From NCBI RefSeq assembly GCF_000718305.1, contig NZ_JOFQ01000001.1, positions 434,001 through 498,000 of the forward strand: a stretch of DNA of 64,000 nucleotides. Direction: 5' to 3'. The position numbers were made by a program, and so were the translations under genes. The stretch is from Streptomyces niger (lineage in GTDB: Bacteria; Actinomycetota; Actinomycetes; Streptomycetales; Streptomycetaceae). The notes under the pieces were generated by a model. That model did no database searches. It had not been told where the DNA came from and was given only the letters and a program-made list of their open reading frames with translations. Below are positions 46,452 through 50,866 of this stretch, in pieces (positions within the stretch are counted from its first letter, which is position 1; each line of letters starts with the position of its first letter).

Positions 46452-47051
46452 TCAGACGGGCAGGAAGGCGTCCACCTTCGGGTCGTGCGCCGTCACCAGG
46501 CCGGTGTGCACCTCGTAGAACCAGCCGTGCAGCGCCACCTCGCCGGCGTCCAGGCGCTCCTGGACGCAGGGATAGGCGCGCAGCCGCTCGATCTGCTCGC
46601 ACACGTGGCGCTGGACGGCACCGGCGACCGTGGGGTTGTCGTCCCGGGGCAGCTCGGCGGAGAACTCCTGGGCGAGCCAGTCGCGCACGGCGGGCGCGTC
46701 GTTCAGGTCCTCCGCGCGTGCCCGCGCGCCCACCGCGCCGCAGTGGGAGTGGCCGCACACCACGATGTCGGACACCTTCAGCACCCGCATCGCGTACTCG
46801 ATGGTCGCGGCCTCCGAGCAGGCCATCCCGTCGTGGTAGGCGGGGACGGCGTTACCGGCGGTCCGCAGCTCGAACAGCTCGCCGGGGCGTGCGTCGGTGA
46901 TCAGGGAGGGGATGACCCTGGAGTCGGAGCAGGTGATGAACAGGGCCTGCGGCGACTGGCCTTCCGCGAGGCGACCGAAGACCTCCCGTTCCTCGGGGTG
47001 CTCGGCAATGCGGGCGTTCAGCTTCCGGGCGTGCTGGATGAAGGACTCCAC
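46452..47051 (-). CDS. Beta-class carbonic anhydrase
   Basis: A 199-residue zinc enzyme interconverting CO2 and bicarbonate. Zinc ligands Cys41 (CSDSR with Asp43 and Arg45), His101 and Cys104 (GHSHCGAV) are all present. The closing GWFYEVHTGLV is typical of the bacterial CynT/Can subgroup. The GTG at 47051 has AGGAG at nine-base spacing. It appears monocistronic; the bicarbonate would serve carboxylases of fatty acid or polyketide supply. Confidence 0.93.
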   Translation of the reverse strand: MESFIQHARKLNARIAEHPEEREVFGRLAEGQSPQALFITCSDSRVIPSLITDARPGELFELRTAGNAVPAYHDGMACSEAATIEYAMRVLKVSDIVVCGHSHCGAVGARARAEDLNDAPAVRDWLAQEFSAELPRDDNPTVAGAVQRHVCEQIERLRAYPCVQERLDAGEVALHGWFYEVHTGLVTAHDPKVDAFLPV

Positions 47052-47227
47052 GGGAGGTGTCTCCTGTTGGTGAGGGTGCCACGGAGAGGCGTGGCGGTTG
47101 CGGATGGCTGGCGGAACAACGGCGGAACACTGATCGTCGGTACGGCGCCCGCGCGGCTCGGCGGGGTGCCCGGACGGTGCCGCGCGGGGGCGACCGCGCG
47201 CCCCGGATGACCGGCCCGGTCGGTGTG

Positions 47228-47280
47228 GCCGGTGCGGTCGCCCCGACGGGTGCGGTCGGGCCGACGGGTGCGGTCGATCC
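47228..47280. repeat. 18-bp tandem repeat
   Basis: Two full units starting GACGGGTGCGGTCG (47245-47262, 47263-47280) follow a degenerate third (47228-47244). The 258-base gap between the carbonic anhydrase and MFS genes is otherwise without recognisable signals. Confidence 0.7.
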
Positions 47281-47309
47281 CGTCGGATCGGCGGGGGTAC
47301 GGGGCAGGG

Positions 47310-48704
47310 TCACGCCGAGGGCTCCTCCTGTGCGCGCCGGGGTGCGGCCATCGCACCGGAGCGCCGCCGTGCGGTGAGCGCCAGGACCGGGACGATCGCC
47401 AGCGCGAGGACCCCGCCCGCGAGGGCCAGCGCCGGGAAGCCGCCCGCCACCACGACCAGCCCTGAGGACATGCCGCCGGTGGCCCCGGCCACGGCGATGC
47501 CCACGTCCAGCACTCCCTGCGTACGGGCCCGGGTGGCTGCCGGGAGTGCGTCCGTGACCAGGGCGGTGCCGCTGATCAGTCCGAAGTTCCAGCCGATGCC
47601 GAGCAGGACGAGGGCGGCGGCCAGCGCCGGTACGGAGTGGGCCGGCGCCAGGGCGGCGACGGCACCGGCGGCGAACAGCGTCATCCCGGACGCCACCGCG
47701 ACCGGCAGCCGGCCGACCCGGTCGACGAGCTGCCCGGTCAGCGGCGAGGGCAGGAACATCGCCCCGACGTGAAGGGCTATGACCAGTCCGGCATCGCCCG
47801 TGCCGTGTCCGTGCGCCCGCATGTGGACCGGCGTCATGGTCATGATCGCGATCATGGCGAGCTGGCCGAGCACCATGACGCACGTACCACCGAGGAGCCG
47901 GCGCCGGTCGGGACGGCCGTCGCCCGCCCGGCCCCGAGGCGTGCCGGCCTGAGCCGCGGATTCGGCTTCCGCTGCCGCCTCCCTCCTCGCCTCCGCCGCC
48001 GTCTCCGCGTCCGCCAGCGTGCGGGCCAGGCGCAGGGGGTCGGGACGCAGCAGCGCGGCCAGGAGGAGGGCGGCAGCCGTGAAGGCGACGGCGGCGAGCG
48101 CGAACGGGCCGGCGAGGCGCGGGATGCCCCAGGCGTGCGCCGCCTCGCCCGTTGCGGTCACCAGCAGCGGCCCGGCCACCGCGCCGAGCGTGGTGGCCAG
48201 CAGTACCGTGCTCACCGCGCGGCCGCGCCGCTCGGGCGTCGCCAGGTCGGCGCCCGCGTACCGCGCCATCAGGTTGGTGGCCGTACCCGCGCCGTAGACC
48301 GTGAGCGCGAGGAACAACAGCGGTACGTCGCCGGTCGCGGCGGCCACGACGATGCCGAGGCTGCCGACCGCGCCGCCGGCGTATCCCAGCGCGAGGCCGG
48401 GGCGTCGGCCCCACCGCTGGGACAACCGTCCGATGCCGACCGCGCCCAGCGCCGCACCGGCGGTGAACAGGGCGCTGGGCAGCCCGGCGAGGCCCGTCGA
48501 GCCGAGCATCTCCTCGGCGAGCAGCGCGCCGACGGTGATGCCGGCGGCCAGGCCCGCACCGCTGAGGACCTGCGAGACCACCAGGACGGTCAGTACGCGC
48601 CGCTGCGCGGCGGCGACGGACACGGCAGGGTCTGCCTCGGCGGCCGGCGCGTCCGGATGCGGTGGGTCGTGGGCGGCGGGCACCGCACCGGCCCGGCCGG
48701 TCAC
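47310..48704 (-). CDS. MFS exporter in the peptide operon
   Basis: A 464-residue, 12-helix transporter. Motif A-like loop GRLSQRWGRRPGLALG follows the second helix; the halves are joined by a charged Ala/Glu-rich loop (AETAAEARREAAAEAESAAQ). PGFA-type antiporters of this group export small molecules. The GTG overlaps the stop of the preceding gene (GTGA), and the whole run 50767 to 47310 is on one strand with small gaps. As the last gene of the putative peptide cluster it is the natural candidate for exporting the product. Confidence 0.82.
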   Translation of the reverse strand: MTGRAGAVPAAHDPPHPDAPAAEADPAVSVAAAQRRVLTVLVVSQVLSGAGLAAGITVGALLAEEMLGSTGLAGLPSALFTAGAALGAVGIGRLSQRWGRRPGLALGYAGGAVGSLGIVVAAATGDVPLLFLALTVYGAGTATNLMARYAGADLATPERRGRAVSTVLLATTLGAVAGPLLVTATGEAAHAWGIPRLAGPFALAAVAFTAAALLLAALLRPDPLRLARTLADAETAAEARREAAAEAESAAQAGTPRGRAGDGRPDRRRLLGGTCVMVLGQLAMIAIMTMTPVHMRAHGHGTGDAGLVIALHVGAMFLPSPLTGQLVDRVGRLPVAVASGMTLFAAGAVAALAPAHSVPALAAALVLLGIGWNFGLISGTALVTDALPAATRARTQGVLDVGIAVAGATGGMSSGLVVVAGGFPALALAGGVLALAIVPVLALTARRRSGAMAAPRRAQEEPSA

Positions 48705-49255
48705 GTGCCCGTCCCCGTCCCCGTCGCCGTCGCCGTCGCCGTGCCCGTCTTCGGCATCGGTTCCAGCGCGGAGATCTCCCGCAGCTCCATGTCCAACTGC
48801 TCGTGCAGGAAGCGGACGACGGTCCAGTGCGGCAGCGCGCCCTCGTCGAAGGGGCCGAACTCCCGGCAGTACAGCGGTATCCAGCGCAGCGCCTCTTCGG
48901 CGGCCTGCTCGCGGCCGGGCTCCCTCTGGTACTCCTCGTACGGAATGCTGCGGTGCTCGATGAAGAACCTCCCCGGCAGGCGCTCCTCGCAGAGGTGGCG
49001 GTACTCGCGCGTCTGCAGGATGAGGTAGTGCCAGAACTCGTCGATCTCCTGCTCCACGGGGAGGAACAGCCCGCTCAGCTCCTCGGGGTACTTGGAGATC
49101 AGGTAGAGGTAGCGCAGGCATTCCAGGGCCTGCCGCTCGGTGTACTCCCGCGGTGCGTCGCCGGCGGCGGCGAAGTGGTCGACCAGCTCCGTGTACAGGG
49201 CGGGGCCGAGCAGCGCCGTGAGGTCGTCCGCGGTGACGAGCGTCTTCGTGGTCAT
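48701..49255 (-). CDS. His-containing protein of unknown function in the peptide operon
   Basis: A 184-residue soluble protein. The central IDEFWHYLILQTREYRHLCE (71-90) and FFIEHRSIPYEEY (97-109) contain His76, His87 and His101 with nearby Asp72, Glu73 and Glu100, a spacing that could bind a metal; the D/E-x-x-W-H-x-x-x-L/I-x-T-x-x-Y pattern is also seen in glycine-rich-domain (DUF1399-like) proteins. I do not recognise a defined enzyme. The tail after Pro168 is pure Thr-Gly/Thr-Ala from a 6-bp repeat. It starts eight bases after the adenylating enzyme, so the two are coupled. A modifying role on the peptide is a hypothesis. Confidence 0.7.
   Translation of the reverse strand: MTTKTLVTADDLTALLGPALYTELVDHFAAAGDAPREYTERQALECLRYLYLISKYPEELSGLFLPVEQEIDEFWHYLILQTREYRHLCEERLPGRFFIEHRSIPYEEYQREPGREQAAEEALRWIPLYCREFGPFDEGALPHWTVVRFLHEQLDMELREISALEPMPKTGTATATATGTGTGT
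48707..48748. repeat. 6-bp microsatellite, seven units
   Basis: Units GCCCGT, CCCCGT and CGCCGT repeat seven times (42 bases). On the minus strand they encode the Thr-Gly/Thr-Ala tail of the 184-residue protein and lie immediately before the MFS start. Unit gain or loss keeps the frame. Confidence 0.9.
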
Positions 49256-49263
49256 GGTGGCTC

Positions 49264-50517
49264 TCACTTTCCGTCCCGGGCGAGCCAGGCGTACTTCCCC
49301 GACTTTCCGATGGCGATGTGGTCGCGGTGGTCGAGTACGCAGCGGCGGCCGGTCAGTTCGCGGACGCCGTGCCCCAGGGCGGCCACCTGCCGCGGTGCGA
49401 GGGGCCGGCCGTCGAAGGTGGTGTACGCGAGTACGGCCTCGGCGGGGCTGAGGACGCGGAGTTGGTGGACGAAGACGTGGGGCGAGACGGAGCCGACGAG
49501 GGCGTCGAGGTCCCCTTGCGCCACCGGTCCCGAGGGGGACTCCAGCAGCTCCTTCTCCCGGCCGCTGAACTGCTTGATCTTGGCCGGGTCGGGGGTGCCG
49601 TCGAGGGTGCGGGCGCAGTCGCCGGAGCGGTAGCGCACCAGTGGCATGTGCGGGTTGCGCACGCTGGTGACGATGAGGTGGAACAGCCCGCTGCCCTCGG
49701 TCACCGGCGCCAGCTCGACGCTCATGTCCTCGAGGTAGGGGTGGTAGCGGCCGCGGCGGTCGCTGTAGAAGAGGTAGCCCAGTTCCGTGCTGCCGAACAG
49801 GTCGATGATCGGGCACGCGAAGTGCTGTTGGAGATACCGCCGCACGTTGACCGGCGTGAATTCGTAGGCGTGGATGATGCTCGCCGGCGGTGAGAAGGCG
49901 TCCCACAGCCCCCACTTGTTGATCTTCTGCAGCAGGTGCGCGAGGTGGTAGCCGGAGCAGTCCAGGTGGTACCACCCCTGCGGATGCGCCTGCCGGGCCT
50001 CCGCCATCTCGGCGAGCATCCGCTCGACGTCGGCGCGCTCCCAGAGCGCGGGGTCGAGGCGGGTGTTGAGGTAGAAGGTGCGGGCGTCGATGCGGCGGTC
50101 CGCAGGCCGCGGGTCGGGCCGCGGCTCCTCGCCGCGCTTCTTAGCGTTCACCCGGGCCACGTGCTCCGTGGCGAGCACCGTCGTCAGCGAGACGCGCCGG
50201 CAGCCGGCCTCCCAGGTCTCCTTGATGTCCGGATGCGTACTCCACAGCCGGTAGTAGGACTTCAGGAGGAAGTACGGGGGCCGGATGAGCTGCATGCGGG
50301 CGTGGTTGGTGCCGGTGGAGAGCACGAACTCCGCCTCGCCGGCATCGAGGGCGGCCGCGAGCGCCGGCGTCATCCAGTTGTCCGGGAAGCCGCGCGCGAT
50401 CTCGGCCTTCTCCAGTACGGGGAAGTGGCCGCGCGCCACCGCCTCGCGGTAGAGGGGGATGTCCTTGACGCGCGCGATGACGTCGGCCGTCGGCTGACCG
50501 TCCGGGGAAACCTTCAA
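49264..50517 (-). CDS. PaaK / coenzyme F390 synthetase-like adenylating enzyme
   Basis: A 417-residue ANL-superfamily protein related to phenylacetate-CoA ligase and F390 synthetase. The ATP loop is STGTNHARMQ at 67-76, the A5 motif DLFGSTELG near 239-247, the A7-type YRSGD at 296-300 and the hinge FSGREKE. The typical C-terminal Lys may be in AIGKSGKY. It should activate a carboxylate as an acyl-AMP; no CoA-binding signature can be seen. A TTG at 50517 has GAGG six bases ahead; a TTG at 50529 has none. It lies 97 bases after the Cys-rich peptide gene, so its likely substrate is the peptide or an acid to be joined to it (inference). Confidence 0.8.
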   Translation of the reverse strand: MKVSPDGQPTADVIARVKDIPLYREAVARGHFPVLEKAEIARGFPDNWMTPALAAALDAGEAEFVLSTGTNHARMQLIRPPYFLLKSYYRLWSTHPDIKETWEAGCRRVSLTTVLATEHVARVNAKKRGEEPRPDPRPADRRIDARTFYLNTRLDPALWERADVERMLAEMAEARQAHPQGWYHLDCSGYHLAHLLQKINKWGLWDAFSPPASIIHAYEFTPVNVRRYLQQHFACPIIDLFGSTELGYLFYSDRRGRYHPYLEDMSVELAPVTEGSGLFHLIVTSVRNPHMPLVRYRSGDCARTLDGTPDPAKIKQFSGREKELLESPSGPVAQGDLDALVGSVSPHVFVHQLRVLSPAEAVLAYTTFDGRPLAPRQVAALGHGVRELTGRRCVLDHRDHIAIGKSGKYAWLARDGK

Positions 50518-50614
50518 GGGAAACCTCAACAGTGCTCATGGACCGGTGCCGGGGCCGGCCGGCGGCGCGGGTGCACCACCGCCGGCCGACCCCGGAACGC
50601 CGGGCGGCGACGGG

Positions 50615-50767
50615 TCAGGAGATACAGCCGGTCTTCGTCGCGCTGATGCAGCCGGACTTAGGGGACGCACTGATGCAGCCGTCCTTGTCCCCCTTTTGCG
50701 CCGAGTTGGCGGCTACCCAGCCCTGCCAGACGTCGTCCTGGGCCATCTTCTTGACGAGCTGTTCCAT
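50615..50767 (-). CDS. Candidate RiPP precursor peptide with three GCIS repeats
   Basis: A 50-codon gene with GGAGG five bases before its ATG at 50767. The leader (1-29) begins MEQLVKKMAQDDVWQGWVAA, helical and with two Trp, then a charged QKGDKD. The rest is repetitive: GCIS at 30-33, ASPKS, GCIS at 39-42, ATKT, GCIS at 47-50 and stop. The three Cys (31, 40, 48), and Ser/Thr at fixed positions, look like a core for cyclisation, acylation or export rather than a structural protein. The first gene of an operon with an adenylating enzyme, an unknown His protein and an MFS exporter. No LanM, YcaO, radical SAM or DUF692 gene is adjacent, so it fits no named RiPP class I know. Confidence 0.75.
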   Translation of the reverse strand: MEQLVKKMAQDDVWQGWVAANSAQKGDKDGCISASPKSGCISATKTGCIS

Positions 50768-50818
50768 GCGAACCTCCGTGAGGTGGAACGTGAGCTGGAC
50801 GTGCGGCGCTGACGTGCG

Positions 50819-50846
50819 CTTTTACCGCACCGCTCGAAGGTAAAAG
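50819..50846. promoter_or_regulatory. Perfect inverted repeat overlapping the peptide promoter
   Basis: CTTTTACC (50819-50826) and GGTAAAAG (50839-50846) are exact inverted arms with a 12-base spacer. The right arm overlaps the -10 box, so a bound protein would block transcription. Confidence 0.6.
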
Positions 50847-50866
50847 ATTCGCCAAGCAAGTGTCAA
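50837..50866 (-). promoter_or_regulatory. Vegetative-type promoter of the peptide operon
   Basis: On the minus strand a perfect TTGACA (plus strand 50861-50866) is followed after 18 bases by TACCTT (50842-50837). It predicts a transcript start near 50830 and a leader of about 60 bases. The region is much richer in A and T than the rest of the window. Confidence 0.65.

Follow-up and report, generated by a model that had tools for sequence, protein, structure and literature searches.

A GCIS-repeat peptide, a PaaK-fold adenylating enzyme and a His-motif protein in Streptomyces: a three-gene module, likely of a new RiPP-like class

A 64,000-nucleotide stretch of DNA from the soil bacterium Streptomyces niger (contig NZ_JOFQ01000001.1; designated the window) encodes a short peptide with repeated GCIS units, a PaaK-like adenylating enzyme of the ANL type, and a protein with three conserved His residues, designated the His protein. 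The three genes constitute a module, found in the same order in other genomes. As judged from comparative sequence analysis, the module likely represents a new class akin to the ribosomally synthesized and post-translationally modified peptides (RiPPs). Our preferred interpretation, to which we assign a probability of roughly 0.45, is that the trio is a RiPP-like peptide-modification module in which an external acid is placed on the units of the peptide. Literature searches (open-licence full texts) returned no account of the module. Its members in the window are:

50615..50767, minus strand: precursor-like peptide of 50 residues, with a leader of about residues 1-23 followed by a core with three K-x-G-C-I-S units
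49264..50517, minus strand: PaaK-fold ANL adenylating enzyme, in an open reading frame (ORF) open to 50529
48701..49255, minus strand: His protein of 184 residues, with the motif W-H-x-L-I-L-x-T-x-x-Y-x-x-x-C...H

Co-occurrence and spread of the trio

When public species genomes were searched with no query but the enzyme profile, the best 80 of 129 matches were fetched as loci. In all 80 the peptide gene precedes the enzyme gene on a shared strand, and the His protein follows the enzyme, for an order of peptide, enzyme, His protein, in 79; the exception (L066) is cut by a contig edge. Streptomyces or Kitasatospora contribute 77 of these loci, Paraburkholderia two, and Kutzneria viridogrisea one. 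A sample of 199 genomes from the window's own genus, its own genome included, was searched with an enzyme threshold of E 1e-50; the window enzyme nests among Streptomyces in the tree. The peptide occurs in 29 of the 199, or about one genome in seven, while the enzyme and a full-score His protein occur in 28 each, and these are the same genomes. In the 29th peptide genome (G661, L136) the peptide lies about 27 bases from a contig end, with its partners beyond reach, and five further genomes have weak His-protein matches only (E 8e-10 to 6e-7). The preliminary description of this DNA, made from the sequence alone, had singled out loss of the peptide from relatives that keep the partner genes as telling against the grouping; no such case was seen in the 80 loci or the 199 genomes.

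Full-length enzyme was found in 14 of 200 genomes of a family-wide sample, own genome included. The His protein profile matched in 5 of 396 genomes of a phylum-wide sample, at full length in the own genome only. Four of 117 genomes of Paraburkholderia (the genus of L077) encode the enzyme, each time beside a four-unit peptide. The four Paraburkholderia rows and Kutzneria cluster in the enzyme tree with 98/86 support (midpoint root), a grouping consistent with lateral transfer.

Enzyme and His protein are a single uninterrupted ORF of 601 residues in the complete chromosome of Streptomyces sp. WAC 01529 (L073:9902-11704), the sole case among the loci checked; elsewhere the His protein match begins -9 to 291 bases after the enzyme's stop codon, with a median of 36. 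This fusion supports a physical complex of the two proteins, which probably act as a pair. Leader distances correlate with enzyme distances (r 0.62; 0/2000 permutations).

The peptide, the enzyme and the His protein

The 50-codon gene, its ribosome binding site (GGAGG, 5 nucleotides before the ATG) and the three GCIS units reported in the preliminary description are all confirmed. The product reads MEQLVKKMAQDDVWQGWVAANSAQKGDKDGCISASPKSGCISATKTGCIS, and its final 21 residues consist of the three GCIS units and their spacers; two or more GC[IV]S appeared in 1 of 200,000 residue shuffles. The leader and units also occur in 19 other database peptides. From 129 locus rows, in which the window is present more than once, we collected 99 distinct peptides. 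The search pattern demanded at least two GC[IV] and is blind to one-unit peptides; the peptide was nonetheless found in all 129 rows.

The alignment of 300 Cys positions from the 99 peptides shows that the repeating unit, first recorded as GCIS, is really K-x-G-C-[IV]-S, with a Lys that had been overlooked. Gly precedes the Cys in 299 of the 300, Ile or Val follows in 299, position +2 is Ser in 298, and position -3 is Lys in 293. Most peptides have three units (82 of 99), while nine have four and eight have two. Adjacent units are mostly separated by 4 or 5 residues, with a range of 3 to 10 and a single 13-residue spacer that spans a degenerate unit. Three peptides (L004, L017, L142) have the Cys replaced in one unit. 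The peptide ends in exact GC[IV]S in 94 of 99, in GCISR in three, and in a degenerate last unit in two. GCIS codons give a proportion of nonsynonymous differences (pN) of 0.04 against a synonymous value (pS) of 0.42, and are under strong constraint at the protein level; the Ser is encoded by AGY (194) and TCN (104) alike. The 99 peptides thus show the RiPP trait of a short ORF with a conserved leader and a separate core, here of two to four units. A conserved Asp or Glu in the core, which we take to mark graspetide-like ester or amide formation, was not found: acidic residues reach at most 71 of 300 at any unit position.

The likelier start of the enzyme is TTG at 50517, preceded by GAGG. The full PaaK fold is present, and residues of the P-loop, FGSTE, RYRxGD and C-terminal Lys, which we take to be the ANL motifs, are invariant in 30 of 30 enzymes aligned; the FGSTE and RYRxGD regions also align with relatives in PDB. 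The earlier assignment to PaaK-like enzymes of the ANL type is thereby upheld. Against NCBIfam model TIGR02155, the equivalog for PaaK phenylacetate-CoA ligase, the enzyme scores 13.8 bits, below the cut-off of 646.3. Solved relatives with a ligand named in the structure title (PaaK1, NatL2, ClxA, HCL) bind small acids.

Five residues of the His protein (D72, H76, C89, H101 and H143) do not vary in any of the 48 aligned sequences, the window included, and among them are the three His residues that had looked conserved from the single sequence. The predicted structure is largely helical, with a mean confidence (pLDDT) of 82. Ten distant paralogues, eight of them from the window's own genus, were aligned as well (L160-L166, L114-L116). 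As read from this alignment, an older motif common to both groups, D-x-x-[WL]-H...T-x-x-[YW]-x-x-x-C...G...H, takes in D72, H76, C89 and H101, while H143 falls opposite gaps, in a region that cannot be aligned with the paralogues. Database relatives of the His protein bear the labels Glycine-rich domain-containing and PF27765, the latter precomputed for most of those listed; our Pfam scan gave no such match. No PaaK-like ORF was found within 3-6 kb around the ten paralogues. Several of them end in Cys/Gly-rich tails. In L160, L161, L162, L164, L165 and L114 the W-H...C...H motif is followed by such a tail, e.g. CNPPACCGDGGGCGG, and on sequence these proteins resemble fusions of a domain with a peptide-like tail. 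Four tailed paralogues adjoin a similar ORF of 125-157 residues.

The window His protein has a C-terminal tail (48701-48760) of simple sequence, TATATATGTGTGT, from a CCGTCG-type repeat. A near-identical database entry (P0121) has 177 residues rather than 184, which may reflect a tail of varying length or a differing gene call. In Streptomyces filamentosus a second, partial ORF resembling the His protein (L047:3514-3903) lies about 6 kb from the module and is possibly a decayed copy.

Upstream signals and neighboring genes

The following features flank the trio in the window:

50861..50866, minus strand: -35 element TTGACA of a conserved promoter-like region, sigma-70-like by motif only
50837..50842, minus strand: -10 element TACCTT, with an 18-nucleotide spacer to the -35 element, from an alignment of upstream regions and direct reading
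50773..50777, minus strand: ribosome binding site GGAGG of the peptide gene
47310..48704, minus strand: MFS exporter, accessory to the module (Pfam MFS_1, E 4.6e-31)
46452..47051, minus strand: beta-carbonic anhydrase, a loose neighbor outside the core (Pro_CA, E 8.6e-42)

The alignment of 99 upstream regions yields the consensus TTGACa...cTtG...TTTAC.tTC, and GGAGG is part of it; the promoter consensus is not evident in those Paraburkholderia rows of the alignment that are shown. No Fur- or Zur-like box was evident there by eye (no model scan).

The locus had been described as a four-gene operon ended by the carbonic anhydrase gene. The trio order holds in 79 of 80 loci, as given above, while the MFS gene accompanies the module in only 56 of 80, as a frequent accessory, and carbonic anhydrase marks no fixed end. 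An orthologous MFS exporter (at least 58% identity) follows in 54 of the 77 Streptomyces and Kitasatospora loci. The window has a gap of 258 bp between the MFS and carbonic anhydrase genes, in which GC-rich near-repeats, CGGGTGCGGTCG, were noticed by eye at 47197-47290. A gene for beta-carbonic anhydrase, a SulP transporter, or both lies within the flanks of 51 of the 80 module loci: downstream on the same strand in 27, upstream on the opposite strand in 14, upstream on the same strand in nine, and downstream on the opposite strand in one. Across the window's own genome, four matches to carbonic anhydrase were counted. The products of the trio, the MFS gene and the carbonic anhydrase gene were scanned against NCBIfam and Pfam, and within this set of five none of the classical RiPP enzymes (LanB/M/C, YcaO, radical SAM, DUF692, ATP-grasp) was found, in agreement with the preliminary description.

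Proposed chemistry and its alternatives

Under the interpretation that an external acid is placed on the peptide, the enzyme and His protein would bind the leader as a pair, and the enzyme would convert a small carboxylic acid of cell metabolism into an acyl-adenylate. Together with the His protein, the enzyme would load the acyl group onto one unit after another, with the Cys thiol as the most likely acceptor; the resulting thioester might then shift to the neighboring Ser or Lys or be closed by the His protein. Release of the modified core would fall to a general protease, which might cut at the Lys preceding every unit, and in loci that have the MFS gene its pump would export the core. The cell is the most likely source of the activated acid, because the core holds no conserved acid save its C-terminus, and a single C-terminus leaves the repeats unexplained. 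The acceptor preference is Cys over Ser over Lys, since Cys and Ser are kept in the first Paraburkholderia unit, where Lys is lost. The constancy of the core favors either a product of conserved function or a carrier role; what the module makes is probably of conserved function, as a metallophore, signal or cofactor would be, and not a fast-diversifying antibiotic.

Several observations weigh against this interpretation. The core varies little, and most RiPP families are expected to have more variable cores. All four Paraburkholderia peptides lack Lys in the first unit while retaining GCIS, and Lys must therefore be dispensable in some units. Besides the module ORFs, MFS, SulP and carbonic anhydrase, every neighbor family stays at or below 14 of the 95 loci in the clustering (ORFs of at least 60 residues within the locus flanks, minor families left unannotated), and consequently neither a gene for making the acid nor a carrier or peptidase is evident. 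The model of the His protein gave no usable fold match, which makes its role a guess. The locus counts span the best 80 of 129 enzyme matches, with 49 more distant ones outside, and shared descent alone can yield the correlation of leader with enzyme distances.

The main rival, which we consider unlikely, makes the peptide a carrier rather than the product. It would be a multi-site acyl carrier or scaffold, with K-x-G-C-I-S units charged on Cys directly by the PaaK-type enzyme in complex with the new WH-motif protein, much as a phosphopantetheine arm is loaded, and the His protein would process and release a small molecule; neither a phosphopantetheine carrier nor a classical RiPP enzyme would take part. 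ANL enzymes normally pass acyl groups to thiols. The near-constant GCIS, retained in Paraburkholderia, and the lack of an evident recurring peptidase among the neighbors also fit a carrier, as does the variable number of units, expected if one unit is one loading site. The orthologous exporter that follows in 54 of 77 loci speaks against it, and so does the want of an evident further tailoring enzyme.

It is improbable that the acid activated is the C-terminal carboxylate of the peptide itself, with subsequent closure onto a Cys, Ser or Lys side chain as a thiolactone, lactone or lactam. The regular GC[IV]S end would suit such a closure, and ThiF-like enzymes form thiolactones in other RiPPs (PMC12150305). 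However, a single event at the end leaves the repeated units unexplained, five of 99 peptides end in GCISR or a degenerate unit, and the named solved relatives bind small acids. Attachment at the peptide C-terminus, an option raised in the preliminary description, likewise becomes less likely, with the repeats inside the peptide and three of 99 ending in GCISR.

Only a slim chance attaches to a metal-binding or redox peptide with unmodified thiols, in which case the enzyme and His protein would serve another substrate of the same pathway. The regular spacing of Cys, the possibly metal-like D/H/C/H residues of the His protein, and the carbonic anhydrase or SulP genes near 51 of 80 loci would agree with this, but Ile/Val and Ser are almost as fixed in the unit as Gly and Cys, metal binding alone needs neither, and a Fur- or Zur-like box was not evident by eye upstream.

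Nostolysamides and selidamides are RiPPs that bear acyl groups on side chains of a ribosomal peptide, and the transfer in them is carried out by GNAT enzymes. In contrast, NCBIfam and Pfam scans found no GNAT and no lanthipeptide synthetase among the four genes and carbonic anhydrase. N-acylation of Lys instead of Cys is doubtful; its outcome would be a lipo- or aryl-peptide comparable to the acylated lanthipeptides, with an ANL enzyme replacing GNAT. Lys does stand three residues ahead of Cys in 293 of 300 units, and RiPPs with acylated Lys are known from the nostolysamides (PMC13060382), but the first Paraburkholderia unit keeps GCIS without Lys.

The NatL2/NatAM system of nataxazole joins small aromatic acids, and no peptide is involved. 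A comparison of the His protein profile with PDB sequences gave no match up to E 5, and hence no hint that the protein is related to that system's zinc enzyme (PMC7204872). In the nosiheptide side-ring pathway NosI/NosJ/NosK (PMC5585349), NosI activates an indolic acid for the thiopeptide via a carrier protein. There too an adenylating enzyme acts on an aromatic acid meant for a ribosomal peptide, but the pathway also employs a hydrolase-like enzyme, and its carrier protein is of the phosphopantetheine type. No recurring family of such carriers or transferases was evident beside the module enzyme in the clustering of ORFs of at least 60 residues within the flanks. The adenylating-enzyme logic, earlier called new, is thus not wholly so; the difference that stands is that NosI acts through a carrier protein. 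What sets the module apart, as far as gene content indicates, is a PaaK-fold ligase and a new protein as the only regular partners of the peptide.

If the preferred interpretation is correct, the module would be a RiPP-like class in which no scanned model of a classical RiPP enzyme fits the conserved partners, the PaaK-fold ligase and the WH-motif His protein. Its three genes would form a compact system for which an assay is obvious, and would provide a handle on an uncharacterized protein family. If instead the peptide is an acyl carrier or scaffold, peptide chemistry would gain a new branch, intermediate between RiPPs and carrier-protein assembly.
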